Of a stretch of 64,000 nucleotides of DNA, positions 22,971 to 60,696 are shown piece by piece (position 1 is the first letter of the stretch; the number at the start of each line of letters is the position of its first letter). The DNA comes from Geosiphon pyriformis (lineage: Eukaryota; Glomeromycota; Glomeromycetes; Archaeosporales; Geosiphonaceae). The position numbers and the translations under genes were made by a program. The notes under the pieces were generated by a model. That model was not told the DNA's origin. It saw only the letters and a program-made list of their open reading frames with translations, and did not search any database. The stretch covers positions 245,947 through 309,946 of the forward strand of contig JAAOMT010000445.1 in assembly GCA_016748015.1 (NCBI GenBank), in the 5' to 3' direction.

Positions 22971-23752
22971 GAATGAGACATCTTCTGAGGTGACTAAAAG
23001 ACTTAAATAGTTCTGGAAATTTGGGTTTTGGGTGTATCTAGTTTCTGAACTCCATTGGCATAATTTTAATTGTTGGGTAGATGAACTGAGAATTGGTTAA
23101 TGAACAACCATCGCTGATTTCCAGTTTTGTTGAATGGATCTTGGTCTTTGGTTTCTATGTAATATTGGAGTTGAAATTTGTGGTGGTGTTTGAATTTGTT
23201 GGAGTTAATATATTATTTGTGGCTGTGGTTAATAAATAACTAATGCTGGAGTCTGATAAATCAGTGGTTAATAAATGGGCTGTGATGTTATTGGTAGGTA
23301 ATTCAGTTGATATGGATTTGGTTGATAACTTGGAGTTTGAAACCAGTGATCAGATTTTTAATATTGATTTCCCAATTGTTGGTTATTTAATTAATGGTAA
23401 CAGTTCATTTGTAAGTATTCTTTTTTACCACAATAGTGGCAAATATGTATTTCCTGTTACTACTGTTAATTGATCAACAATGATAGACATGATTGATTTT
23501 GGAACCAATTTGAGTTTCCTGAATTATTGCGTCATTGTGGTGGCTAATAAATTGCATGATTGTCAGCTAAGTATCTTTTTAGTTTCTGATTAATTGAATT
23601 ACTAAATTGTTTTAGTTTAAAATCTAAGTCAGATGATCCATTCATTACTAGATTTATGGCTTGGACATGGTTGGCTTCAAGTTCAGCTGCTTCAAAATCT
23701 TTGGTGTTTGTAACAGTGGCTTGAAGATCTGCTGGATACAATAAACATACAC
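22971..23752 (-). pseudogene. B1 gag, C-terminal part
   Basis: The minus strand shows a gag segment (23,544-23,752, LQATVTNTKDFEAAELEANH) and a CCHC knuckle near 23,400-23,460 reading CHYCGKKEYLQMNC. The knuckle His is Tyr, a CAT-to-TAT change. Pro/Tyr/Gln-rich sequence follows. Gag continues at 56,962 beyond the C1 insertion. The two halves align without a gap against B2 13,820-13,900 once C1 and one ACNC copy are removed. Confidence 0.8.
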
Positions 23753-24462
23753 TGTTATGGGTAAACTGAATAGGGTATGGTGGTAACATTTAATGCTCTA
23801 GTTTTGGGTTATCTTTCAAAGTTGTCTGTTTTTTTTGTCATGTCAGTGTTATCAGTCTCTGAAGGTCTATTCCTGGCTGTAAATTTATCCGTTGAGTTTT
23901 TTGGTTATAAGGCACAGAGTTTGTCTTTTGTCAATTATAATGTTTTCTGTAAATGTGAACTTTTTTTTCTGTGTTAACAAATGCAGTCATTAGGATCCAG
24001 TATTGTCTTTTTGCTCTTCTGATAAGCTACCAAGATAACATTAATATCCAAAACTTAAAAAGAGCTTCCCTCTTTTACCAGGTTATCACGAAGTTTATTC
24101 TAAGACAGTCAATTTTTCTATGTTGTTGTTCCAAAAAAAGAAAGAAAATAAAATAAAAAAAGAAAAAAAGAAAAAGAAAAGAAAAGAATTAGTTTCTGTC
24201 AATCACTGTGATCAAAAGCAATTGGTCCAAATTATTAAGAGTTTAAGGCTTTTATGCCAATGACATCTGTCCTGGAACAAAAGTAGAAAATACTGATTTT
24301 AATTTCAATTAAAATCTGTAAGATGGGAGAACATGAATTGGTGAATTGGATTTGGTTTTGATAATTTATTGTATTTTGGACTATGAATATATAATAAGTA
24401 TAATACAAAGTAAAATTGATTTCTAACTAACTGTCTGTCTTTTCAACTTCTACAACTACTTG

Positions 24463-24470
24463 CTTTTATA
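24463..24470 (-). promoter_or_regulatory. Likely TATA box in the family C LTR
   Basis: TATAAAAG on the minus strand, downstream of the tandem units in the transcription sense. It is conserved in the 5' LTR at 45,355-45,362. Assigned by position and conservation only. Confidence 0.5.
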
Positions 24471-24510
24471 CATTCTTTTGGTTTTACAGGATTGCTTTCA
24501 ATTGCTTCAC

Positions 24511-24570
24511 TATTGCTAGCTATTGCTCATTATTGCTAGCTATTGCTTGTTATTGCTAGCTATTGCTCGT
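24511..24570. repeat. Tandem 20-bp repeat in the C1 3' LTR, 3 units
   Basis: Three near-identical units of the form TATTGCTAGCTATTGCTNRT. Each contains the palindrome GCTAGC. The 5' LTR of the same element has five units. Confidence 0.85.
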
Positions 24571-24667
24571 GTTTGCTCTGTGTTACCTCGAGTTGTACCA
24601 TGTTTTTCTTGTCATGTTTCTTTGTCACATTTTTTCATAGCTTTTTGGTTTTTCTACTTGGGTAACA

Positions 24668-25409
24668 TTATCTTTCTCTTTTTAAAATTGAGCTTTTACA
24701 AAATCATCTATTTCAGCCAAGTTTGTGTTTTCTGTAAAGAACTTAAATGTTGCTTTCAGTATTGCTTTTTGTAGAACTTCAAATTAGGTGTTTGTTATCT
24801 GTTCTATGTTGTTGACTGTGATAGTTTTCAGAGTTTTGTCTAGTAGTACTATTAGATAGTGTTTAAATGCTGAATATAGTCAGTATATTGCTTTATAGTA
24901 TAGGTTTAAATTGTTTCTTCCCACAAATTTTTCTACTTGTCTGTAGGCTTCTTTGTTGATTGTTTGATGGTTGAAGTCTTTGTATGGGCTATCTAATCCT
25001 AATTGTAATCCAATTTTAAATAGTCAATAGATGAGTGAAAGTTTTTTTTCTATTTCTTTGCATTTTCAGGTGTCCATTTTTCTGTTACTGGCTCTAATGT
25101 TTGCCTGTTCAAACCCTCTCTTATTTTTTCAATTCTTACCCAACACAGTTCTATTTCTGTTATCTTCCCTTTTTTCTTAGCTGTGTTGGATCCTATTCCT
25201 ATCATATCCTTTTTTCTTTTATAAAAAGAGGTTTGCTTGTAAAGATGTGACAGCTTAGTTCTAGTTGAACTCTTGTCCACCTTTTTTTTGCTCCTATCCC
25301 TGTATCATATCTTTTTTTTATCAATTGTGATTTCTATTTGAGTAGAAGATTGTTGAATTGCATCAAACAGTTGTTTTGAAAGTTGTAGAATTTGATTTGA
25401 AAAGTTCAT
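24668..25409 (-). pseudogene. C1 ORF3 relic
   Basis: The start ATG is at 25,407-25,409 (MNFSNQILQLSKQLF), followed by IEITIDKKKI. This matches the N-terminal pattern of family A and B ORF3. A 76-codon open piece (25,050-25,280) follows in a shifted frame, and the rest is full of stops. The end (KLNFKKRKIML) passes through the polypurine tract into the LTR, as in the other families. Confidence 0.65.
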
Positions 25410-25493
25410 GTTGAAAAAGGTTTTATCATTTTTTCATTGTTTTCTGGGTGGTATATATACTTGAATTTTTCAATTTAATTTGCTACATGTTGT

Positions 25494-26615: not shown

Positions 26616-28033
26616 TGTTACTGGGTGAAAACTACAGATTTGTAACTTCTTAGCAATGACAATAACTTTTACCTGGAACACATATTACCATAATTATACT
26701 ACTAACTATAGCATATCATGGGTGTATAAACTATTTCAATGAATGGGAAAGTGAAAAAAAGATACGTAATAAAGTTATTAAAAGCAAAAGAAAATATTGT
26801 TATTATTATTTGTTTTTGGGCAAGAACCAGTTTTAGGTATTTAAAAGATGAAAGAGAAGTCACATCTCTTTATATGTATCAAAAGTACAACCAGCAACAA
26901 GGAAAAACCAAAACTACTTAAGAAAATCATAACCAGAATTTTTTCAATTAGTCATTGAAAGAGTGTGGTGTTCAAATACCTGTTTTGAAAATGAAGTTAT
27001 AGGAATTATAAAAGGAATTGTGAAAGTAAAACATAACTGAAATAGATTTTAATTAAACTTTTTATTGTTGAAACCATTCTCTAATAACGTGATATTTTAT
27101 TACTTATTTTTATATCTAACAACTTGTTCAGTGAAACAAAACTTAATATGAAATGGTGATAACATATGATTTGAAAGATCAGAAGTAATAGAACAACTTA
27201 AAATGGTGATAACAAATAAGTAAAAGATTATAAACAATGTAATTCTAAATGGTAATAAGAAATATAGGAAGACATATTTGAAATGGTGATAACAAGTATT
27301 TAAAGCATAAGAAGAGGGAAAAAAAGAGTAAAGGGTAAAGGAAAAAACTAACTGTTTACTATAAAACTATAGCAAAGAGTTGGCTCAGTATTGAACTGAT
27401 GCTTTCCTGAGCTGACAGAAGGGCTGTATATATAGCTAAATTACATCAGATCTACATATTATATTAGAACTATTTAAAATACATCAATTATTTATATACA
27501 TTTAATTAATCAATTTATGATGAGCTTATTTGGCCTGTTATTTATTCAAGAGCTAGTAATTTAGATGATCAGATTTTAGATGGCTGGATCTAGAACATTG
27601 ATTGTAAATCAATAATACCAATTGTGATTATGATCAACATAATCAGAAGTAGATCAATTGATTACATTTCTTGGTAACTACTTTTAACTATTAATCACAG
27701 ATCTGGAATGTTAGATTGTTTCAATAAGAGCATATGAGAATTTTAGAGCATAATAAAACCTGTTGTTATTTAATTACATGTGTCAATCATTTATTTCCAT
27801 TGGTATTTTTTAGTTTGTTAAGATTTTTTTGTATTCAACTTAGTTAAACTGTTGGATTGTGCCATATTTCTTTGTTGTAATTAAATTGATTACTGATCAT
27901 TTATTTTCAGATTGCCAGTTGATTTGTTGATTAAGTGCAATAATATAGGCTTTTTTTGCATGATTTTGATGTTAATTTTTATTATATGTGTTGTAATTTT
28001 TGCATTGAAAAGTGTGAAAATCTTCCAATAATA
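26616..28033 (+). repeat. Solo LTR, family D, inserted in the C1 integrase
   Basis: It starts TGTTACTGGGTGAAA and ends CTTCCAATAATA. It matches 50,303-51,722 end to end (about 1,418 against 1,420 bp). The flanks ATAT and GCAT differ by two transitions. C1 codons on both sides allow an original ACGC site in the coding sense (GAC GCG, Asp-Ala). It contains several copies of a GAAATGGTGATAAC motif (27,150-27,300). Orientation is tentative. Confidence 0.82.
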
Positions 28034-31330: not shown

Positions 31331-31780
31331 CTTTCCAGGTTGGTGGTGGGAGTAGTTCAGTTCAATAATTGTCCGCCCATGAAACCTGATAGATCTCAAT
31401 GGTTGGTGGTAGTGGTGTGTCTTTGAATTCAATTAGGGGTTTCTTAATATGTTGGATTTTAAAGTGTCTACATGTAGCTGAAACTCGGGCATACTGTTTA
31501 TTAAACATGAGTTGAAGTTTTTGGGTATTCCAGTCGAGCATAACATTGGCTTTTGACAACCAATCATTTCTTACTAGAGCTTGATATTAAGTAGCTTCCA
31601 TGACAAGTACCTTGGTAGGGATCTGGATTCTATTAATCTTAAAGAGGAAGTTGTTAATTTTTTCTATTAGAGTTTTTGTGTTTCCATCTACTGTAATGAT
31701 CTGGGAAGTAGTAGCACAGTTTACTTGATGACCTAGTTGGTTCATGAACTGTTTTGTAATTATGTTACTGGCTGATCTGC
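31331..31780 (-). pseudogene. C1 protease, C-terminal part
   Basis: It begins within the active-site loop (SASNIITKQFMNQLGHQV), directly after the B3 insertion, and continues through the flap (ITVDGNTKTLIEKIN) to the linker. With the N-terminal part at 42,383-42,654 it reads through an Asp-Ser-Gly-Ser-Ala loop once B3 and one 4-bp copy are ignored. Confidence 0.8.
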
Positions 31781-32784
31781 TGTTACAGGTAATTATTTGA
31801 GGTTTCAAAGCAAATAACAAATCTGTAACTTGGTGCTTAATATCTTGATAATACTGGTACATTGGTTGTATCTAAAGGTTTTTAGAGTTGAGTCCTTTGT
31901 ATAATGGACAAAGATTTAATTATTGTCTTTCCCATAGCCTCCTGGAATCGCAATTCTATCAAATTTTTTTCTTAGTGTGGTGGCTGGTAATCTTGGCAGA
32001 GATGTCCTTCTGGTAAGCTATCCTTAAATTCTCAATTCCAATACCCTTCCTTTGGGATTTTTTACCAAGCTATTCTTAACATTAATAACTTAGCACTTAA
32101 CTTTTTAATTAATTTAGTGAATAACAAAAGAAAATAAAATAAAATAAAGAAAATAAAAGAAAATAAAAAAAATAAAATAAGAAATAAGTATCCTGTCAAT
32201 AGTTGTGATTAAGAGCTATTGTGCCAGCAAGTTAAGTAGTAGATAATAACATAGATTTATAGATAATAGATAATTTCATTAATATGGGTGTGATTTTTCT
32301 TCAAGTTATAGTATTCTATCTTTTGAAGGAAGAGTATTTAATCATTATGACCTGCGAGTCTAATTGACTTTGTGAGTCTAATTGACTCTGAGAGTTCTAC
32401 TGACTCTTAGTCTTTTTAACTTTTTGTTTCATTGACTTTTTGTCTCCTTGACTTATTTTCTAACTTCTGATACTACTGCTATATATACATAATTTGAGTT
32501 CTACGAAATTGCTCACATTCTTGAGCAATGTTCTATAATTTCTCAAGCAATGTTTATATTGCTGAGCAATATGCCATGATTTCTGACATTGCTCCATATT
32601 GCTGAGCAATGTGCCTGTAATTTCTGATAATGTGCTCATTGCTGAACAATGTGCCGTGATTCTCTGACAATGCTTCACATTGCTGAGCAATATGTTTACA
32701 TGCTATATACTATTTTCTTATTGGTCTATTTTCTCTATCTGTTTTTTCCTACTATTTTCTTGTATTTTTTTTTTATGAGTAACA
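31781..32784 (-). repeat. B3 3' LTR (about 1,004 bp)
   Basis: On the plus strand it runs from TGTTACAGGTAATTA to TATGAGTAACA. Palindromes of the form ATTGCTGAGCAAT cluster at about 32,510-32,700. The polypurine tract lies just right of it, at 32,785-32,800 on the minus strand. Confidence 0.9.
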
Positions 32785-33300
32785 TTATTCCCTCTTTTAA
32801 TATTGAGCTCCTGTGAAATCTTCTAAATTTTTCTTTTGTATCAATGTTGTTGCTGTAATTTCTATTGCTATTTGTAAATCTAATTTTATACATGACTGGG
32901 GTTTTTAACTATAGCAGTCTGTTCAGAATATCAATTTCAAATCTTGCATCTGTATTATGTGCATGTTCAGACATAATGCTTTCATTATTATCACTGAATT
33001 TAGTTAATTCCTGCTCTATTATAAGATCTAGAAGTGTGATATATTGTTCAATGTTTGAAGCAGAGTTTGAATTTGTTGTTGGCAGAGTTTGAATTGTTGT
33101 TGTCATTAGTGAAGTTTGAATTATTGTTGTCATTAGTGAAGTTTGAATCGTTGTTGTCATCAGCAGAGTTTAAATTATTGCTGTCATTAATGGCATTTGA
33201 ATTGTTGCTGTTATCAGTGGAGTTTGAATTGAAATTAAGTTCTGATTCCCATTTGTTCTCGCTAATTGGCTCTTTTTCAAATATATAACACATGGGAGTA
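32785..33300 (-). pseudogene. B3 internal relic: linker, start of dUTPase and ORF3 end
   Basis: On the minus strand an Asn/Asp/Ser repeat-rich linker (33,048-33,293; units like DNNNSNFTN) leads into EHAHNTDARFEIDI, which is dUTPase motif I, and then breaks off. A deletion joins it to a few codons from the ORF3 end and the polypurine tract. It encodes no complete domain. Confidence 0.72.
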
Positions 33301-33369
33301 GATTGTGACTATGTCCCAATATTCTGACTTAGGGCCGTTAGGTGAGTTTTTCTGATTTATTGGTACTGT

Positions 33370-33675
33370 GAGAATTAGGTAAGTTTCCTTGTATAATAGC
33401 GGTGTTTGGAATTTATCAGACTTCGAATGTTCAGGTTTTTGAATAATTCCCTGAGTTTGAATTGCTAGAGATTTAATGAGTTTTATTGATGGTAAGTTTC
33501 TTTGTATGATAGCAGGATTGGAATTATTGGGTTTCGAATGTTTAGATTTTTTAACAATCGGATTTTGAATAATCAGAGTTTTAACAAGTTTATCAAAGAT
33601 AAGTTTCAAATATTTAAAGTTTTAACGATCAGGTCAGAGTTTTAATTTAACGAGTTTTAACAAATTTATCAATGG
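33370..33675. repeat. Minisatellite of B3, left part, degenerate
   Basis: About three to four degenerate units of the roughly 88-bp repeat that continues at 40,696. Shared landmarks are GTAAGTTT, CGAATGTT, TTGAATAATC and TTTATCA. A2 is inserted within the array at a unit boundary. Confidence 0.8.
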
Positions 33676-34658
33676 TGTTACCAGAGGTTTTTGGTCTCTT
33701 TTCTTAAATGTTGTCGATACTTGTTTGCTGTAAATTCATGTTTTCTGGATGTGGTTAAATCTCCAGTAACTGAATTTATCTTCAAATTATCTCCTATAAT
33801 TTGAACTGCTGGGCTTATAAGTGGAATGGCCAATTTTATGCCAGTTGCTTTATGTAGTTACATTGTAGTAAATGTCAACTCTTTTCCAGGAAATGCTTGT
33901 CTGGAAGCTCACTAAAAAAATGTGTAGTTACTTTGCTATGAAAGTCAACTCTTCTACAGGAATCTTGTCTGTAGACTATCCTAATGATTATAGTAAGAAA
34001 ATAAAAAGAAAATAAAAAAAATGTAAAAGAAATAAAATTCTGTCAAGGGAGATGTTTTCAATCCAAGCCTGGAGTCACTAACAGTTTATTGAAATTGGTA
34101 GCTAATCAATTTCAAAATGTTAGTTGAGTTTTAAGAATTTTCTAAATGCAATAATTAAAGAGTTTTTGGTTTTTCGAATTATTTTATATTTATTTCTTTT
34201 TGTGTGTGTAGAAGTGGTTCTAAGTAATAAATCTAAAGTAAGATACATTTTCTCGAAGAAAGAAGCTCTTCTTTTATACAACTTGTTGTAACACTATTCT
34301 ATGAATTTGAACTTTGCTATTTTCTACAATTTTGCTGAACTAAAGATACATTTCGGCAAACTACAAGTTATTTCTGTGAACTATTAGATATTTCAGTGAA
34401 TTATCAATTATTTTGGCAAATTTCTACAAATTTTGGCGAACTTTTGAATGTTACATAGTTCGGGGTATTGCATAATTAATCATCACAATTAGGTTACATT
34501 TGTGTTGTGTACAATTTGGGTTATTAATTAAATAATAATTTTGGACATTTTTGCTAATGTAATAAGTGATAATTTGAAACAATAATATATGCTAATTAAT
34601 GATAGGAATTATAAGATAATTTCATGTTAAATAATATCTTTAATTTTATTTGGTAATA
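33676..34658 (-). repeat. A2 3' LTR (983 bp)
   Basis: On the plus strand it runs from TGTTACCAGAGG to ATTTGGTAATA. The TATA box is at 34,271-34,278 (minus). Compared by eye with the 5' LTR, the differences are almost all transitions. ORF3 ends 32 nt inside it. Confidence 0.93.
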
Positions 34659-35346
34659 TAACCTCCTTTTTAAGACTGAGCTTCATCAAAGTCCAAGTAC
34701 TGTTTGTTATTTCCAAATAATAATCCAAAATTATTGAAGAAATTTGGTCTGACAATTGTTGAAATTTCAGTTTTGTGAGCTTTCCAATGTATTGAATCTT
34801 CAAAGGTTGAAAAATTGGGTTTTGTAGTATGTTTTCACAGGTGTGGAATAGGTCATAAAGTCTAAGAGCAGCTCTGAGTCTGTAGTAACTGTTTGTTGAT
34901 CTAGCTGTTGTCTTGAATTTATTGTGAAGTTGTTTTTGAATAGCTTCTTTTGTGAGGTTTGCTGTTGTAAATTCTAGTTTCCATTCGTAAAGTGTTTTTC
35001 CAATGTGAAAATATTTATAGATTGGAGGATATTTAGTGTTTTCCTCATTGAGACACAGTTGAAGTCTTTGTTGAATTGTAGCATTTGGTGAAATACTAAT
35101 CAGAGTAAGCATTAGGTTTTCTCTTAAAGCAAGCTTTAAAAGTTCTGGCAGGTAAATTCCAGTATAACTTCTTGTGTTCTTCTTATACGGGTGATATTTT
35201 TGTGAATTTGGGGCTAAATTTGTAACTACTTCTGTTTGGGTATAATTAATGTGGTTTCCAGTAACAGTAATAGATAATTCGGGTATTGTTTTTAAAGCTA
35301 ACATTAGTTTTTGGAATAATTGTTGAATGTTTTGAGGAATAGTCAT
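34627..35346 (-). CDS. A2 ORF3, intact unknown protein of 239 residues
   Basis: It is an uninterrupted frame from ATG 35,346 (MTIPQNIQQLFQKL) to a stop inside the 3' LTR. Recognisable blocks shared with A1 and A3 are HPYKKNTRSYTG (residues about 50), LPELLKLALREN, PPIYKYFHIGKTLYE (about 120), NLTKEAIQKQLHN, LRAALRLYDLFHTCEN (about 165) and LKIQYIGKLTKLKFQQLSDQ. It is mostly helical, without signal peptide, transmembrane segment or Cys cluster. It sits where errantiviruses carry env, but nothing supports an envelope. The function is unknown; a particle or cDNA-associated accessory is possible. Confidence 0.8.
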   Translation of the reverse strand: MTIPQNIQQLFQKLMLALKTIPELSITVTGNHINYTQTEVVTNLAPNSQKYHPYKKNTRSYTGIYLPELLKLALRENLMLTLISISPNATIQQRLQLCLNEENTKYPPIYKYFHIGKTLYEWKLEFTTANLTKEAIQKQLHNKFKTTARSTNSYYRLRAALRLYDLFHTCENILQNPIFQPLKIQYIGKLTKLKFQQLSDQISSIILDYYLEITNSTWTLMKLSLKKEVILPNKIKDII

Positions 35347-35466
35347 TATAAGCAATTTAAAATAAAAAAAATTATTTTTGGTGTATGGGTTTTTATGTTA
35401 TTTTTGTTTTGTTTTTGTGAGATTGCTTTTAAATTATAAAAAAATAACTATAATAATAAATTTAAA

Positions 35467-36852: not shown

Positions 36853-36904
36853 TGTTTGTTGGCTCTTTTGGTTGGTTAAGTTGAGTGTTGGTTTTTGTGT
36901 TTTT

Positions 36905-37159
36905 CTAATCTTGTCTCATTCTGGAGAGACAGTCAATATTGGTGTAGAATTTTCCTGGTTTGTAATGTACTATGTATCAATAATTTGCTAAAAATCTTGT
37001 CCATCGGGTTTGTTTTGCATTCAGTTAAGTATTTTTGTTCTGAAGCCATTTGAGTCCAATATTATCAGTGATAATATCGAATTCTTTAGGCCTGAAATAA
37101 AGGTTGAAGTGATGTAGGGCCCAAATTATGGCTGCTGTTTCTAGTTCTGTTTTATTGGC
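36905..37159 (-). pseudogene. A2 RNase H remnant fused to protease by deletion
   Basis: The frame resumes at TELETAAIIWALHHF (RNase H) directly after the protease linker (ALGSTFN). It runs through FDIITDNIGLKWL to SRMRQD and TAG at 36,905-36,907. Against A1 about 2.9 kb is missing, covering the Cys-rich module, dUTPase, RT and most of RNase H. Confidence 0.88.
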
Positions 37160-39710: not shown

Positions 39711-39712
39711 AA

Positions 39713-46584: not shown

Positions 46585-46586
46585 TT

Positions 46587-46597
46587 TGGTGCTCTCC
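46587..46597 (+). promoter_or_regulatory. A3 primer-binding site
   Basis: TGGTGCTCTCC starts 2 nt after the LTR end. Confidence 0.7.
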
Positions 46598-46632
46598 TAC
46601 AGAAATAACACAGCAACAACAAATTCAAAGTA

Positions 46633-48480: not shown

Positions 48481-49180
48481 CAACAACCTGTACTTTCTGA
48501 AAGTGAAGTTGCAGCACCCAGATCAAACCCTTCCAACAACACTATTCTACCAGCTCAAATTGCCCAAAATGCCAATCTTTCAGATATATTCCCATTCGAA
48601 TTTGAAGCAAATAAATCACCATTCTTGCTTAGTAATGCAGCAGCTAATGAACAAAAAGCTATCACTGTCATGTACACTAAAGCTACAGTAGAAGGAAAAC
48701 TCATCCGACTAATTCTAGACAGTAGATCAGCTGGAAGTATTATTACCTACCAGTTAATGCAACAGTTTCAAAGAACTGTTAACAGACCAGCCCAAACTGT
48801 AATTGTTACAGCAGATGGTATGAAAAAGACACCAGTAGGAAAAATTGACAATTTTCCATTCACCATTGATGGAATCACCATTCCAGTTAAAGTTTTAGTC
48901 ATGAATGCACCCCAATATCAAGCTCTGGTCGGAAATGATTGGCTTCTTAAGGCCAATGCAAACTTGGACTGGAAAACTCAGGAATTAAAAATCTCATACC
49001 AAGGACAATACACCATAGTACCTGCTACTTGTGGTACTTTTAACAAATGATCAGAAAAAGCCCCAGTATTTGAATTTAAAGAGAAGAAAAAAATGCCACT
49101 TACTGAAACCTACATGGCTCTTGGATCAACATCCAATTGGGCTGAAAAAACAGAACAGGGGATTTTTGAAGAATTAAGAA
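48481..49180 (+). pseudogene. A3 protease
   Basis: It is open from 48,319 to 49,047 together with the gag tail. The active-site loop reads LILDSRSAGSIITYQ near 48,715, with the essential Gly after Asp-Ser changed to Arg (GGA to AGA). The flap (VTADGMKKTPVGKIDNF) and C-terminal part (LVGNDWLLKAN) are good. The Gly-to-Arg change predicts an inactive enzyme. A TGA follows at 49,048. Confidence 0.87.
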
Positions 49181-49890
49181 GATGGAAGAAAGTTAGATAT
49201 TCTATACCAGAACCATAGAAACAACCATCTTATATTCTACTCAAATACAAAGATTGCAACAAAAAACTTTCATCAATGTGAGCATGTATTTCTCCAGAAG
49301 AGAAATATGAAACTCATACCTGTTACTTTTGCAAAGCATGCCATAGAGAACGATTTGAATCTCCAAAAAGAAGTGGAAAATAGGACAACACACCTTGCCT
49401 TACATGTGGAGATATGTTACCAGAAAAATGCAACTGGATTGATATTGCAATGAGAGGAGGAGTATGTGATCAAATCTGTCAATATGCTCTATCAATTTCA
49501 GAAAAAGTCAGAAGAGGAACACCATTTGATGTAGCATACAATAGTGCTCTCAATAAACTTTACTACTACCCTCATAATACTAAAATAATTTTTGACCTAA
49601 CAATGGCATTGATCAATAGAGCCACTCAAGAAGATGTCTGTCAAATAAAAGAAGCTGAATACATTGAGTATATCATGGAATTAGCTGGATTTAATTATGA
49701 AAATGAAGCAGAAACATATTACCAAATTGCAAGCCACATATATTTGACCAAAGAAGCTCAAATTTAACAATTAGAGCAAATGAATATTTAATTGTGTAAA
49801 AAATACATCATGTTTTGTGATGACCAATGGTGTTTAGAATGCTATGCTCTTAGCATTCCTCTGCCAAATGAGAATAATGAAAATGAAATC
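49181..49890 (+). pseudogene. A3 Cys-rich module
   Basis: KYKDC (first Cys now Tyr), CYFCKACHRERF (about 49,320-49,355), CLTCGD (about 49,398) and CDQICQY (about 49,465) are followed by a helical stretch (AYNSALNKLYYY, 49,414-49,764 open). Then comes a final group with one Cys altered (LCKKYIM) and CLECY. Stops are TGA at about 49,279, TAG at 49,381 and TAA at 49,765. A1 has complementary undamaged positions, which lets the ancestral pattern be read. Confidence 0.77.
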
Positions 49891-50302
49891 GAATTTGGAG
49901 TATCTGAACTAGTAGAAGAACTACCAACCACCTCTATCTATCTCCTTAAAAAACAACCACTTCTACAACTTAAATATTTTGACAACTATGGCCAAGGAAT
50001 CAGACCAGAAAAAGCACACGAAATTGATGCCAGATATGACCTAAGATACCCAGAAAAAGATACTTTGGTTCTCCAACCAAAGTTTTTGACAAAAATCAAT
50101 CTCAAAATTGCTCTTGAAATTCCACCTGGAGCAATAGTTCAAATTGCCTCCAGATCATTATTGGCAAGCAAAAGAATCAATATTAGAAGAGGAGTTATAG
50201 ATGCAAGATACACTGGAAACATTACCATCATGTTGCAGAATAAAACAGACAAACCATTCAAGATTAAACATGCTGAAAAAATCACTCAAGCAATTTACCT
50301 AC
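49891..50302 (+). pseudogene. A3 dUTPase, motifs I to IV
   Basis: Motif I is DARYDLRYP, motif II SRSLLASK (second Ser to Leu) and motif III RRGVIDARYTGN with catalytic Asp and Tyr intact. Motif IV begins KHAEKITQAIYL. The D-family LTR then interrupts just after motif IV. Motif V lies at about 51,790. Confidence 0.87.
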
Positions 50303-51722
50303 TGTTACCAGGTGAAAGCTATAGATTTGTAACTTCTTAACAATAACAATAGCTTTCACCTGGAACATACATATTACCATAATTATGCTACTGACTATAG
50401 CATATCATAGGTGTATAGACTATTTTAGTGAATGGAAAAGCAGAAAGAGATACATAATAAGGTCATTAAAAGTGAAAGAAAGTATTGTTATTATTATTTG
50501 TTTTTGGGCAAGAACCAGTCTTAGGTATTTTAAAAGAAAAAGAGAAATCACATCTCTTTATATGTATCAGAAGCACAACCAGCAACAAAGAGTAAAACCA
50601 ACTACTCAAAGAAATACGTAACCAGAATTCTTTCAATTAGTCATTGAAAGGGTGTGGTGTTCAAATGCCTGCTTTGAAAACGAAGTTATAGGAATTATAA
50701 AAGGAATTATGAAAGTCAAACATAACTGAAATAAATTTTGCTTAAACTTTTTATTGTTAAGACCACTCTTTAACAATGTGATACTTTATTACTTATTTTT
50801 ATATTTAACAACTTGTTTGGTGAAACAAGACTTAATGTGAAATGGTGATAACACATGATTTGAAAGATTGGAAGTAATAGAACAACTTGAAATGGTGATA
50901 ACAAGTAAGTAAAAGATTATAAACAACATGATTCTAAATGGTGATAAGGAATATGGGAAGACATACTTGAGATTGTGATGACAAGTATTTAGAGCATAGA
51001 AAGGGGAGAGAGAATGTAAAAAGTAAAGGAGAGGACTAACTGCTCATTATAAAACTATAGCAAAGAGTTGGCTTAGTATTGAACTGATACTTTCCTGAGC
51101 TGACAAAGGAGCTGTATATATAGCTAAATTACATTAAATCTACATACTATATTAAAACTATTTAAAATACATCAATTATTTATATACATTTAATTAATCA
51201 ATTTATAATAAGCTTACTCAGCATGTTATTTTCTCAGAGCTAGTGATTTTTAGATGATCAGATTTAGATGGCTGGATCTAGAACATTAATTGTCAATCAA
51301 TAATACCAATTGTGATTATGATCAATGTAATCAGAAATAGATTAATTGATTACATTTCTTGGTAACTACTTTTAATCATTGATTGCAGATCTAGAATGTT
51401 AAATTGTTCTAATAAGGGCGTATGAAAATTTTAGAGCATAACAAAATCTGTTGTTATCTGATTACATACATCAATTATTCATTTCTATTGGTGTTTCTTA
51501 GTTTGCCAAGATTTCTTTATATTCAACTTAGTTAAACTGTTGGATTGTGCCATATTTCTTTGTTGTAATTAGATTAATTGCTGATCATTTATTTCCAGAT
51601 TGCCAGCTGATTTTGTTGATTAAGTGCAATGATGTAGGTCTTTTTCGCATGATTTTGATGTTAATTTCTATTGTATGTGTTGTAATTTTTGCATTGAAAA
51701 GTGTAAAAATCTTCTGGTAACA
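50303..51722 (+). repeat. Solo LTR, family D, inserted in the A3 dUTPase
   Basis: It starts TGTTACCAGGTGAAAG and ends CTTCTGGTAACA, with CTAC on both sides. The empty site in A1 reads TTACCTACCC, as expected. The interior has about four copies of a roughly 50-bp unit with AAATGGTGATAAC (50,840-50,990) and TATATATAG near 51,118. No internal region or second LTR of this family occurs in the window. Orientation is tentative. Confidence 0.9.
50308..50363. other. Perfect 15-bp inverted repeat near the D LTR start
   Basis: CCAGGTGAAAGCTAT at 50,308-50,322 and its exact reverse complement at 50,349-50,363 enclose a 26-nt loop. The older copy at 26,616 has the same arms with several transitions. It could form a hairpin in RNA or single-stranded DNA. 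Confidence 0.9.
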
Positions 51723-52400
51723 CTACCCTTAATCAATATTTCGGGTCTACAATCAGTTAACAACAAAAAACAATTGGAAAAAAGTGAAAGAGGAACTCAA
51801 GGTTTTGGTTCAACTGAACAATTTACAGTTCCAGTAAACATAGCTCTTAAAATACAAAATGAATCTTACCAGATTTTTCAACTTCCCCAACCAATTACCA
51901 TTTCATCTTTTGGAGAACATCACGAAATTTACACTTGCTCAAAATCCACTACTATCCAACAAATCTTTAAATTCAATGAACAAATCTGTTTGAAGCATGG
52001 AATCTCAATTCCAAACGTTTATATTCCCAAAAGAATGAAAAAATTTTGAGTTACATTCTATAATCCCAATAATTACCCTATTGTCTTATTAAACAAATTA
52101 AAGATTGGAATCATACACAGCAATATTTTTCAAGATGAAAACCCTCAAATTGTCTCTAATTTCATTGAAATTGTAAAGCACATTCTACTCCCAAATCCAA
52201 ATATCATTCCCAATACTGAAAACTACCACTTGTTGGAAGAAAAACTCTCTTGAATCAATATGGGTCTCTTAAAACCTCAACAACAAAGACAATTGAAACA
52301 ATTAATAGCTGAATTTGCAGATATATTTGCAAAAGACAACAATAACCTGGGAAAAACGGATATCATTCAACATCAGATTCATACAAGAGATGCTCCACCA
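51723..52400 (+). pseudogene. A3 dUTPase motif V and spacer
   Basis: Motif V is ERGTQGFGSTEQF, with GFGST kept and the final Gly altered. The spacer (VPVNIALKIQNE) is open to 52,046, then TGA at the same place as in A1 (KKF-stop-VTFYNP). More spacer and the RT linker follow with stops. Confidence 0.83.
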
Positions 52401-53666
52401 AAATATTAGCAAGCTTACAGAGTGCCACCTGCCAGTTACCAATTTATCAGAGAAGAAGTCCAGAGAATGCTTAATAACGGATTGATTCAACCATCAAGAA
52501 GTTCTTGGGCCTCACCAGTAGTTTTTGTCAAAAAGAAAAATAGAAAAATCAGATTTTGTGTTGACTATTGCCAATTGAACAGTGTGACAATTGAAGATGC
52601 TTACTCTCTTCCAAAAATTGATGACATATTAGATGCTTTAGGAAAAGCCAAGTTCTTCTCAACTTTGGACTTGAAAAGTGAATACTGGCAAGTCAAAATG
52701 GACCCAAAAGACCGACCCAAAACAGCATTTACCACTTAAAGAGGAAACTATGAGTTCAATGTTATGCCTTTTGGACTCTGCAATGCACCAGCAACATTTT
52801 AGTGACTCATAGATGTTGTATATGAAGGGCTCTTGTGGCAATCAGTAGTTGTTTATCTTGATAACACTGATGTATACTCACTAAGCTTTGAAGCCCACCT
52901 CATTCACCTGTGAGAAGTTTTTCAACGATTATGAAAAGCAGGATTAAAGTTAAACATTGAAAAATGTCACTTTGGAAAAACAAGCTTGATTTTTCTTGGA
53001 CACATAGTTAGTAAAGATGGAGTCAAACCAAACCCAGGAACAATCAGTGCTGTCAAAAACTTTCAAACTCCCAGAAATACCACAGAACTACAAGGATTTG
53101 TAGGATTAACCTCTTATTATCAAAAATTCATAAAAAGATTCTCAGAAATTGCCAAACCACTCAATTATCTTACCAACAAAAATGTGCCATACAAATGGAC
53201 TGAAGAACAACAAAAAGCTTTTGAAACTCTCAAAACAAAATTGACAACAGCCCCAGTTCTTGCTTACTCAGACTTCAACAAACGGTTCCAATTAGTCACT
53301 GATGCTTCATACATAGTATTTGGTGCCATTTTATCACAATTGGATGAAAATGGACAAGAGCAAGTCATCGTCTATGCTAGTAGAACACTCAAACCAACAG
53401 AACTAAAATATGGCTCAACTGAATTAGAAGCTGCTACAGTTATCTGGGCTCTTAAACATTTTTAACAATATCTGAAGAATGGAAAAGAATTTGACATCAT
53501 AACTGACAATATTGGTCTCAAATAGCTTAATAAAAAGAAAATTGAACAAAGTGCCAAACAGTCTCAATGGAATGACTTCTTAGCAGACTACAAATATATT
53601 GTACACCACAAACCAGGAAAAATACACACTAATGTTGACAGTCTCTTAAGGATGAGACAATATTAA
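52401..53666 (+). pseudogene. A3 reverse transcriptase and RNase H
   Basis: RT is open at 52,422-52,736 with FSTLDLKSEYW (Asp kept, Gly to Glu after Ser). The YxDD box reads YLDN near 52,858. The connection and RNase H start is open at 52,986-53,462 (VTDASYIVFGAIL, TELEAATVIWAL). The native end is RMRQY and TAA at 53,664-53,666. Stops lie at 52,737, about 52,801 and about 52,911, among others. Confidence 0.87.
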
Positions 53667-53722
53667 TACCAACATCAATACCAACAAATTTAACAGCAGA
53701 ACAAACAACAAAATCAACAACA

Positions 53723-55107
53723 ATGGATCCAGAAAACTACAAATAACATCAAAAACTATTTGGAAACTCTCACTATGCCAGAAAATTGGTCCCAAGTGAA
53801 AAACATTGATTACAACACCAATTCAAACAATATTTTATACACCACAACAAAATCTATTACAAAAATTGTAAAAACTCAAACCAATCACTCAAATTAGTAC
53901 AGGAAAATAAAAAAGAAACAATTTTATATAACATGCATACAGATCTGTCTTCAGCACACTTGGGAAGAGATGAAACAATTCAAAGAACTCTTGAACATTA
54001 TTTTTGGCTTTACATGTAAAAAGACATTCGACAATATATAAAATCTTGTGATAGTTGTCAAAGAAGAAGAGGAACTTGCCCCACAGAACCTTTAAATCCA
54101 ATCAAAGTTGGACAACCATTTGACAGAGTTGGAATTGATTTAGTTGGACCATTACCTATCACAATCCAAGGAAATTGCTATATTGCAGTAGCAGTAGATT
54201 ATCTTACCAAATGGCCTGAAGCTAGAGTCATCCAAAGAGCAGATGCAAAATTAGTAGCAAATTTCATCTATGAAGACATTATTTGTAGACATGGATGTTT
54301 AATTGAACTCTTATCTGATCAAGGAACACATTTTGTAAACAACTTGATACAAGAAATTTGTGATTGATTTAATGTCAAAAGATTTCTATCATTGTCTTAT
54401 CATCCTCAAACAAATAGACTTGTAGAATGGTTTAACAGAACATTGTGTGAATCATTGGCCAAAGTCTCAACAGATTTTGAGCAGGAATGAAATATCTTTA
54501 TTCCATCAGTGTTACTAGCATACAGAACACTAAAACAAGATACTATGAAACACACACCATTTGACCTTACTTATGGAAAGACAGCAATATTACCAATTAA
54601 TTTCACAGTAGAAACATACCCAGTGCAACCAATCAATGAAAAAACTTTCAAAAAACACTCCAAAGAAGGGCCTATACTCTTTTCAGTACACTGGAAGGAA
54701 AAAGAAGGATAGCAGCAACTCACATTGAATATTCCCAAGCTCAACAAAAAGAAAGACATGACAACAAATTACCACCCATTATCAACAAATTTAAAGTTAG
54801 AAATAAAGTTTTCTTACACAGAACTAAGGCTGAAAAACAATAGAGTGAAAAATTTGAAAACAAATGGGATAGACCATTTTATATTTACGAAATTCTAGGC
54901 AATGGATCATATAAATTAAGACTTGATAATAAAATACTAGCAAAAGTTGCACATAGAGACAAATTGAAACACTATCATTTCAGAAACAATCTTGAAACAT
55001 TAATTCCACAAATTGGTACACATTCCCCTTTAATTAATCCTGAAGATATTCTCCAAAATTTAGAACCAATAATTATAATAAAACAACAACCAAACTTGAA
55101 CACTTAA
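53723..55107 (+). pseudogene. A3 integrase
   Basis: ATG is at 53,723 (MDPENYK), 56 nt after the RNase H stop. Two compensating 1-bp changes lie in the first 35 codons and one 1-bp deletion near 54,645. Zinc head: HTDLSSAHL and CDSCQRR. Core: GIDLVGPLP (Asp), LLSDQGTHF (Asp), NRLVEWFNR (Glu). The GPY/F-type tail is KWDRPFYIYEI. It ends NLNT-stop like A1 and A2. Several stops occur. Confidence 0.87.
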
Positions 55108-55251
55108 TTTTACAATAATTTTTTAATAAAAACACAAAGCCAAAAAATAGTAAATAATTACAAAAAACACCCAAACCCAAAAACAAATAAAAACCCCATA
55201 TCCAAAAATAATTTTCTTTATTCTCCCTTTTCATAATTAGTCAATTTTATC

Positions 55252-55959
55252 ATGATTATTTCCCGAAATATTCAACAAATATCCCAAAAGTTAATGTTAG
55301 TCTTAAAAACACTTTCTGACTTATCCATAACGATTAATGGAAGTCAAATTAATTACATTCAGAAAGAAACTACAGCCCCAGTAGTAAATCATTTGCAGAA
55401 CTATCACCCCTATAGAAGAAAAACAAGAAGTCACTCTGAAAATAGATTACTAAGACTTTTGAAGCAAGCACTGGAAGAAAATTTTTTAATTGCCCCTATT
55501 GACATTCCACCAAATGCTACAATGCAACAAAAACTTCTACTACTTTTCAATGAACAGAACAATAAACACACCCTTATCTATAAATACTTTCACATTGAAA
55601 AGACACTTTATGAACGAAAACTGGAATTTGAAACAACAAATCTCACTCCTGAAGCTATACAAAAACAAATTCATAATGAATTCAAAACAGCAGCTGGACC
55701 AACAAACACTTGCTACAAACTTAGAACAGCTTTTAGATTCTATGATTTGTTTAATACTTGTAAAAATGTTCTACAAAATCCAATACTGCAACCAATGAAA
55801 GTTCAATACATTGGCAAACTCACAGAACTGAAATTTCAACAATTTTCAGACCAGATTACTTCAATTATTTTGGATCACTATCTCAATATTACAGATAGTG
55901 CTTGGACTTTGACAGAGCTTAGTCTTGAGGAGAAGATTATGTTACCAGTAGAATTTTAG
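55252..55959 (+). CDS. A3 ORF3, intact unknown protein of 235 residues
   Basis: It is an uninterrupted frame from ATG 55,252 (MIISRNIQQISQKL) to a stop 20 nt inside the 3' LTR. It aligns over its whole length with A2 ORF3: HPYRRKTRSHSE, LLRLLKQALEEN, LIYKYFHIEKTLYERK, NLTPEAIQKQIHNEF, FRFYDLFNTCKN and VQYIGKLTELKFQQFSDQ. Conserved blocks with diverged surroundings suggest past selection on the protein. No known domain is recognised. Confidence 0.8.
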   Translation: MIISRNIQQISQKLMLVLKTLSDLSITINGSQINYIQKETTAPVVNHLQNYHPYRRKTRSHSENRLLRLLKQALEENFLIAPIDIPPNATMQQKLLLLFNEQNNKHTLIYKYFHIEKTLYERKLEFETTNLTPEAIQKQIHNEFKTAAGPTNTCYKLRTAFRFYDLFNTCKNVLQNPILQPMKVQYIGKLTELKFQQFSDQITSIILDHYLNITDSAWTLTELSLEEKIMLPVEF

Positions 55960-56951
55960 CTATTAATTAACATGAAATTACCCTTATAATTCCTATAATT
56001 AATTAGTATATTAATATTATTTCAAATTATCATTTATTATTTCATCAATTATCACATATCACGATTCAATTATATAATTTAATTAGTATAACAAAAAGTA
56101 GAATGATCAAATTACACAATACTCTGAACTTTGTAACATTCAAAAATTTGCCAAAATTTACAGAAATTCGCCAAAATTTATAAGAAATTCGCCGAAATTT
56201 ATAGAAATTCGCCAAAATTATGAATAGTTTATCCAAATTAATCAATAGTTCAGCAAAATAACTTGTAGTCCATCAAAATGTATCTTTAGTTTGCCAAAAT
56301 TTGAGCAAAGAGAAAAAGTGCAAGTTCATAGACTAGTACTACAACAAGTTGTATAAAAGAAAAGCTTTTCTCTTTAAGAAAATGTATTTTACTTTAAATT
56401 TATCACTTAGAACCATTCCTATACACACAAAAAGAAATAAATATCAAATAATTTGAAAAACCAAATTCTTTAATTATTGCACTTGGAAAATCCCCAAAAC
56501 CCAACTAACATTTTGAAATTGATTAGCTACCAATTTCAGTAAACTGTTAGTGACTCCAGGCCTGAATAGAAAACGTTTCCCTTAACAGAATTCAATTTCT
56601 TTTATATTTTTTTTACTTTTTTTTTATTTTCTTATTATAATCATTAGAGTAGTGTACAAACAAGATTCCTGTAGAAGAGTTGACTTTTACAGCAAAGTAA
56701 CTACACATTTTTAGTGAGCTTTCAGACAAGCAATTCCTGGGAATAAGTTTACATTTACTACAACATAACTATATAAAGTAACTGACAAGGAATTGGCCAT
56801 TCCACTTATAAGCCCAGCAAGTTCAAATTATAGAAGATAATTTGAAGATAAATTCAGTTATTGGAGGTTCAACTACTTCTAGAAAATGTGAATTTGCAAC
56901 CAATAGACATTTACAACATTCAAGAAAAGAGACCAAAAACCTCTGGTAACA
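55940..56951 (+). repeat. A3 3' LTR (about 1,012 bp)
   Basis: It runs from TGTTACCAGTAG to CTCTGGTAACA, preceded by the purine tract TTGAGGAGAAGATTA. The TATA box is at 56,352-56,359. It is slightly longer than the 5' copy through an extra GAAATTCGCC-type unit (about 56,160-56,220). Confidence 0.92.
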
Positions 56952-56961
56952 TCAGATAACA

Positions 56962-58310
56962 ATGCATTGGAAGATATTACTGCACAGGTCTCTAATGAAT
57001 TGGTTTAGGATTTGTGGTGCTGTAAAATAATCAGCTTGTATTGTCTGAATTTGGTGCAGATTTCTGTAGAAGTGTCCTAAGTAAGTAATAACTGCTTCAG
57101 TTTCTTCTGGTTTAATAGTAGTAAAGATATTTATTAGACAATTAATACTATTATTATTGCTAAAATATTATAGAAATGCAAGCTTGAATGCATTGAAATT
57201 CTAAGGTTTGTTGGCCAAGCTTTGATATCATAAGTCGGCAGTATCCTAAAGAAAGTATGGAATGGCTTACATGGCTCTAGCATTATTCTATCTATTGACT
57301 ACAATGGCTTTTTCAATATTGTTTAGCCATACTTGGGTATTGTCTTCTTTGTCTGTAAACTTTTCGAGTTTTGCTATTGAGACATAGGCCATTGGATCCA
57401 AGTTTGGTTGTTGTTGTTGTTGTTGGGATGATAACTGAATTTGGAATTATGGTGGTGGCTGTTGTTGTTGTTCAGTAATTAGTGAAATGAGTGATGGATT
57501 GATCTCGATTATTGGAGGTAAGTTTTGTTGATTAATTATGTTAGAGTTTAGATCATTCTGATTTTCTGGAGTTTGAATATTTGGGGTTTGATTTTCTGGA
57601 TTTTCTGAGATCAGATTTTGGTAATTAAATTCTTGATTCTCATTTTTTTTTTCTTCAAATTCTGTCACTTCCCAAGGACTTGCAGTTCCAAAATTTGGTG
57701 GAGGTGGTAATGATCAAAATTCTGATGGCATCAATGATTGTAATTTAAATTTTTCAAAATAATCACCATAAGTTCCTAATAATTCTGCTTTTTTTTGTTT
57801 ATTTTAAAATAGGAGTTATCTAAATGTTGAGATCATGTTTGATGTGAACATATCTGCTAATAAGATGTTAATGGTGCTTCTGGATGTATAGTGGTATGAT
57901 GGATTGGTTAAAAATTCTATTCTTGTTTTCTTTCAAGTAAGTGGTTGTATTTTTTGTGATGTTACTGCTGGTGTTTGTAGTTTTCTTTTGTTTTTGTTTG
58001 TATAGATAATTAGATATCTTTGTTAAGTGTGATGTTCAATTTTTTTATTGATTTTGATAAGGATTGCTGTGAAATTATAATTTGCTGGTAGGCTGGTATT
58101 TTGAATTAATTTGTTGTTAAAATTTCTTCTGGCTGAGTTAGTTTCTATTGGTACTCCTAGCAAATATGAGATTCTCTTGTTGACGTAAAAGTTGAAGGCT
58201 AATTCTGTTAATAGGTAATTGTTAGTTAATCTCAAGTGTTAACAGTAATGTTGGAATAAAAATTTGATGAATCCTAAATGGTTTGTCCCTATTCTTTCTG
58301 GTTCTGCCAC
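56962..58310 (-). pseudogene. B1 gag, N-terminal part
   Basis: The frame starts at GTG 58,308-58,310 (AAAGTGGCA; then AEPERIGTNHLGF, matching B2). Open pieces are 58,023-58,235 (KRISYLLGVPIETNS) and 57,447-57,668 (Asn/Gln/Pro-rich linker). Capsid-like sequence continues to the C1 junction at 56,962. Stops are frequent. Confidence 0.8.
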
Positions 58311-58360
58311 TTTTGGATTGTTGTTGTGTTGGTACTGGTTCTCTGTAAGATTATACTTTA

Positions 58361-58372
58361 CAGGGAGCACCA
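58361..58372 (-). promoter_or_regulatory. B1 primer-binding site
   Basis: On the minus strand TGGTGCTCCCTG lies 2 nt from the LTR end. Confidence 0.68.
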
Positions 58373-58374
58373 AA

Positions 58375-59002
58375 TGTTACAAGTAATTATTTGGGGTCTC
58401 AAATCAAATAACAAAACCATAACTTAGTGCTCAATTAATATTTTGATGTTGATTTCTGAAGATGTTATGAATTTGAAGATTTTGGTTGAGTTTTTTGTAT
58501 AATAAACAGAGATTCACTATGATTAGTTTTAGTAGATTTCTCAAGTCATTTTCCCAATTTCTGTCTTCAACATAATGGCTGATTTAATCTGGCAGTTGTG
58601 TTTTTCTGGTAAGCTATTTGTTAATATCTATATAATTCTATCCTTATTTCTGAGTCTTTTACCAGACTATCTGTAAAATTAATATTTCAGCACTTAATCT
58701 TCAATCAATTTAGTAAAACAAAAAGAAATAACAAAAAAAAATCAAAGAAAATAAAAAAAAATAAAAAAAATAAGCCAAGACAATAAAGATTAATATCTTG
58801 TTAATAGCCATAATTAAGAACTATTGTTTCAGCATAGTTAAGTATCAATTATTATTAGCATGAAATGTTGATAGTGAAGAGTGAATTGAGATAGTGAATA
58901 ATTATTTATTGATATTTGTAGTGTAAAAAGGTTGCTTAGATTAAATCTAAACTAAAAGGTTTGCCTTTTTTACTTCTAATACTACCACTATATATACATA
59001 AT
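58375..59002 (-). repeat. B1 5' LTR, U3-truncated
   Basis: On the plus strand it starts TGTTACAAGTAATTA and matches other B LTRs up to TATATACATAATT near 59,002. The palindrome-rich U3 that should follow is absent. A deletion, or truncation at insertion, replaced it. Confidence 0.82.
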
Positions 59003-59111
59003 TAAGATTCCTCAATTTTTTAATTTTTCACACCAAGAATCTTGGAATTTCTGGAATTCTGCAATTTTTTTAAGAAAAATTCTGGAATTCTGAAATCTTG
59101 CGATTTTTTGT
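59003..59111. repeat. GGAATTCTG-type repeat, left copy
   Basis: About 60 bp with AAGAATCTTGGAATT and CTGGAATTCTGCAATT recur, with small changes, at 59,921-59,985 on the other side of the solo LTR. This looks like a short tandem repeat into which the LTR inserted. Confidence 0.6.
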
Positions 59112-59914
59112 TGTTACAGATGATTATTTGGGGTCTCAAAGCAAATAACAAATCCATAACTTGGTGCTTGAGTGGTACTCTGGCATAGATATCTGAAGGT
59201 TTTATTGATCTGAAGGTTTATTGTAGAGTCCTTTGTATAATAGACAGAGATTTAACAATTGTTTTCAGTAGCCTCTCGGAATCATAATTCTGTCAAATTT
59301 TTTTCTTAGTATGATGGCCGGTAATCCTCCTGGTAAGCTATTCTCAAATCTATGAGTGTTTTACCCTTGTTTTATGGGTTTTTTACCAGTTCTATGACAT
59401 CTGTATCTTAGTGCTTAATCCTTAATCAATTTTAGTAAAACAAAGAAATAAAAGAAAATAAATAAAATTTAAACAAAAGCAATTACAAGTTAGTATCCTG
59501 TCAATAATCATAATCAAGAGCTATTGTTCCAGTATGATTAAGTATCAATTACTATCAACATGAAGTGTTAATAGGGGAAGTGAATTTGAAATAGAGAATA
59601 ATTATTTATTGATATTTGTGAATAGAAAGGTTATTTAGATAAAATATAAACTGAGAAGTCTGTCTTTTCTACCTTTAATGCTATTACTATATATACATAA
59701 TTTGGGTTCTATGAAATCACTCATATACTTGAGTGATGTGCTATAATTTCTTAAGCAATGTGCTATATTTTCTTGACATTGCTCTACATTGCTGAGCAAT
59801 GTGCTGTAATTTCTGACATTGCTTCACATTGCTAAGCAATGTGCTTATGTGCTAACTACTACTTTCTTATTGGCCTATTATTTTTTTATATCTGTTTTCT
59901 TTTTATGAGTAACA
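59112..59914 (-). repeat. Solo LTR, family B
   Basis: On the plus strand it runs from TGTTACAGATGATTA to TATGAGTAACA. The flanks TTGT (59,108-59,111) and TCAT (59,915-59,918) imply an original TCGT. The palindrome cluster is at about 59,720-59,845. Confidence 0.88.
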
Positions 59915-60696
59915 TCATACAAGAATCCTGTAATTCCTGGAATTCTGCAATTCTTCTAAGAGGAATCCTGGAATTTCACATTTACTATGGCTACTTTTGG
60001 TTGGCTAATTTATATGCTAATATACTTTCTATATTCTATAAGTAACAACATAGGTCCTCATATGTGTTTTCCTTAGAGTAGTATCATCTATTATGTCATC
60101 TGTTTCAGAAACATTGAAGTTAATATAGCTTATCTCTTCAGCAATCATGTTTTTCATGTTCTCTATATTTAACACCTTACTAATACTACTCTCTTTGCTA
60201 TCTATTTTACTACCCCAAAATTTAACATGCTCATCACTAGTATTATACAACAAATCAACTGACAAAAGTCCAGCTAACAAATTTATCATACTACCAGGAA
60301 CTACAAGCAACTTCATTTTCTTATATGAAGAACCACAAGAATAGATACTCTCAACTTGTGTCTTTTTTTTGTTCCAGACCAGGTTCCCAATTCAGTTAAA
60401 ACAGAATTGAAAATGCCAGCAGAAGAGTCTACTGAATTCATAGCAACAAATAAAAGTGTATCGAAAGAAATAACTATGAAAATTAAAAAGGAAAAGGAAA
60501 AGGAAAATTGTATTTTTTTGGCTATATTATGCTCTCACTGTAACTAGGGAATCAACAAAAGAAAAAACTTTTTTCCTTAACAATTATACAAATTTTTTAT
60601 TATTATTTAAGTAAAAAAATTTTACAATAATAAAATTATAATATTATAAATAAATTAATTGTTTGTTTAATATTTAATACTTATTAATAAAATTTT
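59915..60696. other. AT-rich stretch without a recognised gene
   Basis: It begins with the right copy of the GGAATTCTG-type repeat. From about 60,550 it is almost pure A and T. A minus frame at 60,029-60,316 (95 codons from ATG, open further upstream to about 60,400) encodes a mildly hydrophobic N-terminus and an acidic tail (SETDDIIDDTTL). I do not recognise it, and in such AT-rich DNA it may be chance or a fragment of a host gene. Confidence 0.5.

Follow-up and report, generated by a model that had tools for sequence, protein, structure and literature searches.

Ty3/gypsy-type LTR retrotransposons of Geosiphon pyriformis insert around a near-exclusive pyrimidine–purine step, with CpG favored in two related families

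Tf1, MAGGY, and the Tcn1-like elements are fungal chromoviruses, and the target duplication of Ty3, the long terminal repeat (LTR) retrotransposon of yeast, is 5 bp. For retroviruses that leave 4-bp duplications, the available portion of one study reports that central pyrimidine–purine (YR) steps are enriched, that the duplication is disinclined to begin with T or end with A, and that the central step in the foamy-virus structure is kinked and unstacked (PMC4422553). Drosophila errantiviruses and their relatives, which belong to the gypsy group, are likewise described in the accessible parts of the literature as having 4-bp duplications and palindromic targets (PMC5408687, PMC3276498), and a review lists TATA, CGCG, or ATAT as the targets of the Drosophila gypsy group (PMC5408687, available text). 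Here we analyzed a 64,000-bp stretch of DNA from Geosiphon pyriformis (contig JAAOMT010000445.1, positions 245,947–309,946; hereafter the window), which carries LTR retrotransposons of the families A, A' (the subfamily of the copy A2, with LTRs of ~981 bp), B, C, and D. Judged from their sequences, these elements are Ty3/gypsy-type LTR retrotransposons, with LTR ends of the TG...CA type (TGTTAC...GTAACA in A2). The genome is AT-rich, and dinucleotide counts in the window gave an observed-to-expected ratio of 0.19 for CpG, as compared to 1.31 for TG and 1.32 for CA.

The original prediction for the window was that these elements insert at NCGN targets, which later lose their CpG. The flank letters it gave for nine insertions are all present in the sequence, and, as it described, five of the nine pairs show TG on one side and CA on the other at positions 2–3, while positions 1 and 4 are equal (Table 1). 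A random pair of 4-mers at the given base composition shows this pattern with a probability of 0.0007, and five of nine would arise by chance with a probability of ~2e-14. Analysis of insertions throughout the genome led us to a modified reading, which we regard as very probable: the integrases accept almost only NYRN targets with a 4-bp stagger, the site is palindromic with C preferred to T as the second base on both strands, and CpG decay follows the insertion.

Flanks on one side were collected by searching 124.7 Mb in 406 contigs with LTR-end patterns plus 8-bp flanks, and 374 A starts, 328 A' starts, 210 B starts, and 621 A/A' ends were found. The one-sided counts rest on the first 100 matches listed per pattern, which follow mostly the contig number and are not a random sample. 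Some of the counted starts and ends come from one insertion, and 27 of the 200 listed A/A' starts (inner ones, beside the polypurine tract) as well as three of 100 ends and three of 100 B rows (on the primer-site side) were left out. Among the matches listed, the central step was YR in 359 of 367 outer flanks, compared to 22.7% of the 228,497 dinucleotides of background loci (L001–L068) that are rich in A-, A'-, and B-type elements. The four sets agreed: A starts (80/81; TG 32, CA 26, TA 11, CG 11, CT 1), A' starts (90/92; TG 36, CA 29, CG 18, TA 7, other 2), A/A' ends (95/97; TG 46, CA 31, CG 10, TA 8, other 2), and B starts (94/97; TG 41, CA 36, TA 15, CG 2, other 3). TA accounts for 40% of the YR steps in the background. 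The start pattern of the C family matched nowhere in the genome and that of the D family three times, and genome-wide statistics were therefore confined to A, A', and B.

The neighboring steps of the same flanks served as a local control for the CpG content. Among the matches listed, a central CG was present in 29 of 173 A/A' starts and 10 of 97 ends, while the four informative neighboring steps were CG in 0 of 692 and 1 of 388 cases, respectively (pooled, 39/270 versus 1/1080; p=2e-27). The occurrence of CG at the center of A/A' flanks within CpG-poor surroundings shows that the integrase still picks CG. The A/A' starts and ends mirror each other in the listed matches, with T at position 1 in 12% and 9% and A at position 4 in 12% and 18%. 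A further preference lies outside the duplication, for T at -7 (57%) and A at +7 (61%) from the LTR.

Two-sided flanks were available for 45 A, 53 A', and 13 B insertions, of which 44, 53, and 13 (110 in total) were accepted. The search for near ends covered 60 A, 40 A', and 40 B starts, and that for far ends proceeded from 28 A' and 12 A starts; the rest were full-length copies without a far end, were broken, or partly read as N. We dropped an A pair, CTGT/CCAG, with a transversion at position 4, a pair at C192:24575 (ATAC/ATGC) that by distance is probably an inner LTR, and two wrong ends (L134 and L233). The 53 A starts picked for a CG flank and the 40 matches picked for likeness to the A3 LTR contributed only four insertions to the pair counts, all of which are also in the A-start listing. 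The outer positions establish a 4-bp target duplication: in 110 of 111 pairs, the two copies are identical at positions 1 and 4 or show a transition difference there (among the accepted pairs, identity in 90/110 and a transition difference in 20/110). The central step was YR on both sides in 109 of the 110 accepted pairs. The same center, TG or CA, was found on both sides in 54 pairs, TG opposite CA in 11, and TA on both sides in three.

If all targets had been CpG, fully decayed pairs of the TG/CA type should equal the sum of TG/TG and CA/CA, provided that decay is symmetric. The observed numbers of TG/CA versus same-center pairs were 2 versus 22 in A (p=4e-5), 8 versus 25 in A' (p=0.005), and 1 versus 7 in B (p=0.07). 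The excess of same-center pairs indicates that many targets were already TG or CA when they were hit (20/44 in A, 17/53 in A', and 6/13 in B), and NCGN as the general target was thus not borne out. Counting pairs with a CG copy or of the TG/CA type gives a floor for CG targets, which was 8/44 in A, 24/53 in A', and 3/13 in B and differed between A and A' (p=0.005). The A' value exceeds 10.5%, the reckoned CG share of YR steps in undepleted DNA (p=1e-10). A mixture fit gave CG shares of 0.24 in A (bootstrap 5–95%, 0.15–0.56) and 0.58 in A' (0.41–0.79).

The one-sided and two-sided samples together led us to conclude that A, A', and B obey the YR rule with a 4-bp duplication, that A and A' favor CG over CA/TG and these over TA per available site, and that the two ends of A/A' are symmetric. 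The CpG cases of B are too few for a ranking of its steps. The proposed CpG-centered preference of the integrases thus holds as a preference, given the CG excess at the center of A/A' flanks, and later CpG decay explains the mismatched copies, but CpG is not required. The D pair CTAC/CTAC, which had been considered incompatible, fits the YR rule with its central TA. The interpretation given in the original prediction is thus partly supported, and we propose to replace NCGN by NYRN targets in which C is favored on each strand and, in A and A', CpG above all.

Copies of the target that carry no insertion were found for four of the five TG/CA targets. The B3 site, which on visual inspection resembles a protease active-site motif, has 107 genome copies with up to three mismatches, and the 100 listed comprise CG 25, TG 31, CA 31, and TA 13. 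The A3 site, at the end of a C-family LTR, has 106 copies with up to two mismatches (among 100 listed: CA 41, TG 41, TA 10, CG 6, other 2). The 18 copies of the C1 site read ATGT (6), ATGC (3), ACAC (3), ATAT (3), and ACTT (3), so that both halves are seen and intact CG is not. The same holds for seven sister units of the tandem array into which A2 inserted: ACAG (2), ATGG (2), ACAA (1), AAGG (1), and AAGA (1), with no intact CG. The CG targets implied for the window are accordingly sound for B3 and A3, owing to the intact CG in sister copies, and likely for A2 and C1, owing to the two decayed halves. At the B3 and A3 sites, which serve as known CpG controls, decay was symmetric among the matches listed (TG:CA, 31:31 and 41:41, respectively). 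The CpG at the LTR start of A' decays lopsidedly (CA 46 and TG 18 among 100 listed), possibly through an A' subfamily that carries CA there. Many A LTR ends (L069–L128, by eye) also show C-to-T and G-to-A changes outside CpG, suggesting that the decay is not confined to CpG. The share of TG/CA pairs was higher in the window (5/9) than in the genome sample (11/110; Fisher p=0.002), so that the window is atypical; we can only guess that its targets had been young elements.

Several observations weigh against the NYRN reading with favored CpG. Two of the seven A2 sister units are not YR. If the flanks decayed as lopsidedly as the A' LTR start, same-center pairs would be in excess with p values of 0.001 in A, 0.07 in A', and 0.15 in B, which weakens the excess in A'. 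The CG floor of A is not significantly above 10.5% (p=0.09), the one-sided CG count of B (2/97 among the matches listed) is not above the background YR share (p=0.66), and its 13 pairs are too few to give a stable mixture fit. The five A-, A'-, and B-type integrase copies in the window all have the catalytic loop SDQGTH, which therefore does not explain the differing CG shares. In A', CG-derived pairs were more frequent in solo LTRs (13/19) than in full copies (11/34; p=0.02), indicating that age or place matters; as a guess, older A' insertions met a genome richer in CpG. CG flanks in A' were present, among the matches listed, in three of 33 copies whose LTR-start CpG is intact and in 15 of the 59 others (p=0.10). 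This result, together with the preponderance of same-center over TG/CA pairs, goes partly against the original prediction, which looked to young insertions for CG enrichment. The CG-flank counts also run counter to a simple decay story with the LTR-start CpG as a clock.

The pairs themselves could in principle be due to chance or to mispaired LTRs, and the single pair with a position-4 transversion and the presumed solo pair that is probably an inner LTR point that way. The agreement of the outer positions in all but one of 111 pairs and the chance value for the window refute this source, which we give a negligible probability. We also consider it very improbable that the integrases need CpG at positions 2–3 and that all TG and CA flanks arose by decay of CG. 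Such a need would account for the five TG/CA pairs in the window, the two targets with intact CG copies and two more with both decayed halves, and the central CG excess; it predicts equal numbers of TG/CA and same-center pairs, and the 11 versus 54 found, together with symmetric decay at the two control sites and the scarcity of CG flanks in CpG-intact A' copies, speak against it. If, at the other extreme, any flexible YR step sufficed, the frequency of CG would simply reflect insertion into other elements that were young and rich in CpG. The near-absolute YR rule, an A floor compatible with undepleted DNA, and B starts without a CG excess are in line with this explanation. It is nevertheless unlikely, since same-center pairs hardly ever have TA, although it is the commonest YR step, and neither the central CG excess over neighboring steps in A/A' nor the A' floor of at least 24/53 fits it.

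Integration might alternatively be drawn to methylated CpG, if the integrase itself or a host protein bound to it recognized 5-methylcytosine; this mark would later also destroy the target. Retroviral integration in vitro has reportedly been linked to CpG methylation (Kitamura, 1992, going by the title), and the central CpG excess in A/A' flanks agrees with such an attraction. Rhizophagus irregularis, a host of related integrases, methylates CpG at transposons according to the available portion of PMC8647823. We judge this explanation very improbable, because the excess of same-center pairs places at least 20/44 A and at least 17/53 A' targets at TG or CA when hit, which are not symmetrically methylated CpG. 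A more specific version, that each integrase protomer reads cytosine, possibly 5-methylcytosine, at position 2 and that the best targets are therefore methylated CpG sites within silenced repeats, is a speculation to which we assign a low probability. If true, a self-erasing two-base mark would guide the elements to DNA that is silenced already.

Under the NYRN reading, the integrase would cut the two strands 4 bp apart, near-exclusively around a central YR step. Each half of the palindromic site would favor C over T at position 2, and independent half-sites of this kind would yield the order seen, with CG (two good halves) above CA and TG (one) and these far above TA (none); T at position 1 and A at position 4 would be disfavored. 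The cause may be a sharp kink of the central step during strand transfer, combined with a contact between each integrase protomer and a base, and it is to this contact that we would ascribe the order of the steps. After insertion, the CpG decay of the host, probably deamination of 5-methylcytosine, would convert the two copies of a CG target to TG or CA independently of each other, and such independent decay would give the mismatched pairs seen in the window.

The integrase of A2 was examined in an open piece with a zinc-binding H2C2 domain and an rve core (Table 1). Among solved structures, Ty3 integrase (7q5b) was the best match (E=9.5e-26), and foamy-virus integrase also matched (E=5e-23). 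Among the 120 relatives listed, those with a species name are R. irregularis and R. clarus proteins with 47–50% identity, and unnamed environmental proteins reach up to 63%. Taken together, the copies in the window contain, in the pieces searched, gag, protease, dUTPase, reverse transcriptase (RT)–RNase H, and integrase (H2C2 and core). In the Pfam searches, rve was above the cut-off in A2, protease was found in A2 and A3, and gag in A3; the pol order RT–RNase H, H2C2, rve was seen on one strand. A Tf2-1-like SH3 match at the integrase was below the curated cut-off. The original prediction also held that these integrases apparently lack a chromodomain; none was matched in 19 different ORF (open reading frame) pieces, two of which reach 20–25 residues beyond the SH3-like match, and broken frames could hide one. 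The dUTPase of A3 lies between protease and RT. The long ORFs near the right end of the window lie outside the LTR elements, in a region that by eye looks like a non-LTR element.

Table 1. Insertions and coding features of the window, with flanking 4-mers (left/right) or domain matches
Feature	Position	Strand	Flanks and remarks
A2 (A')	33676–40695	-	ATGG (33672–33675) / ACAG (40696–40699); right flank in ~87-bp tandem array; outer end among the A' starts listed
B3	31781–42382	- (inferred from primer-site side)	CTGC (31777–31780) / CCAC (42383–42386); interrupted by A2
C1	23753–56961	- (inferred from primer-site side)	ACAC (23749–23752) / ATGC (56962–56965); contains nested insertions
A3	45594–56951	+	TTGG (45590–45593) / TCAG (56952–56955); interrupted by D LTR; target is the end of the second LTR of C1
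D LTR	50303–51722		CTAC/CTAC; central TA
D LTR	26616–28033		ATAT/GCAT; end set by visual comparison with the other D LTR
Solo B LTR	59112–59914	-	TTGT/TCAT
Solo B LTR	21734–22513	+	TTGC/TTAC
B2	11738–21605	+	TCAT/TTAT
~87-bp tandem array	33518–33676 and 40691–41302		inside B3; cut in two by A2
A2 integrase, open piece	35926–36915	-	H2C2 and rve core; resembles the integrases of Ty3 and foamy virus
RVT_1 and RNase H	2121–3194		Pfam; same strand as the next two
H2C2	3307–3879		Pfam
rve	3883–4698		Pfam; weak
dUTPase (PF00692) in B2	15847–17376	+	E=1e-16
dUTPase (PF00692) in A3	49792–50337	+	E=1e-14
dUTPase	863–1327		weak; below cut-off
ORF downstream of pol in A2	34630–35397	-	256 aa (amino acids); no Pfam match
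ORF downstream of pol in A3	55237–55956	+	240 aa; no Pfam match
Long ORFs	60828–63128	-	outside LTR elements
Two ORFs tested there	60828–61292 and 62265–63128	-	no Pfam match for either

The elements share with prototype foamy virus, Moloney murine leukemia virus, PERV, and XMRV the 4-bp duplication, the central YR step, and the avoidance of T and A at the edges of the duplication (PMC4422553, available portion). The strength differs: an average rise in YR of 63% over 22% is given for those retroviruses, as compared to a level of ~98% in A, A', and B, and the outer T/A preference of A/A' lies one base further out than in retroviruses with 4-bp duplications (PMC4422553, same portion). Our comparison covers the YR class as a whole in these retroviruses, and within it the present elements favor CG and avoid TA. 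The Drosophila gypsy-group targets are, in the accessible accounts, words of four bases, whereas only the middle step is nearly fixed here, in the order CG > CA/TG >> TA. As regards the env gene typical of the errantiviruses, the ORFs downstream of pol in A2 and A3 gave no Pfam match. Ty3, whose integrase is the closest structural match, inserts upstream of genes transcribed by polymerase III (PMC8632968, available portion). With the fungal chromoviruses, our elements have in common the H2C2 domain, the rve core, and the Tf2-1-like SH3 match (below the cut-off), while the chromodomain remained unmatched in the pieces searched. The Gypsy elements of Rhizophagus have integrases related to that of A2; a literature search for duplications of LTR retrotransposons in arbuscular mycorrhizal fungi, covering titles and the beginnings of abstracts, yielded no study of their target sites. 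No prior account of elements that combine a nearly absolute YR rule and a preference for CpG appeared in the literature searched, which is weak evidence of absence because subscription literature lay mostly outside it.

The near-absolute central YR step with its graded order of CG > CA/TG >> TA far exceeds the bias of the four retroviruses, as given in the available portion of PMC4422553, and hundreds of natural insertions within one genome make the YR/CG preference measurable. In CpG-depleted genomes, target duplications can look mismatched, and tools that demand identical duplications will therefore miss some of them. The Geosiphon elements offer a test of whether integrases with a 4-bp stagger choose their sites by the bending of the middle step together with base contact.

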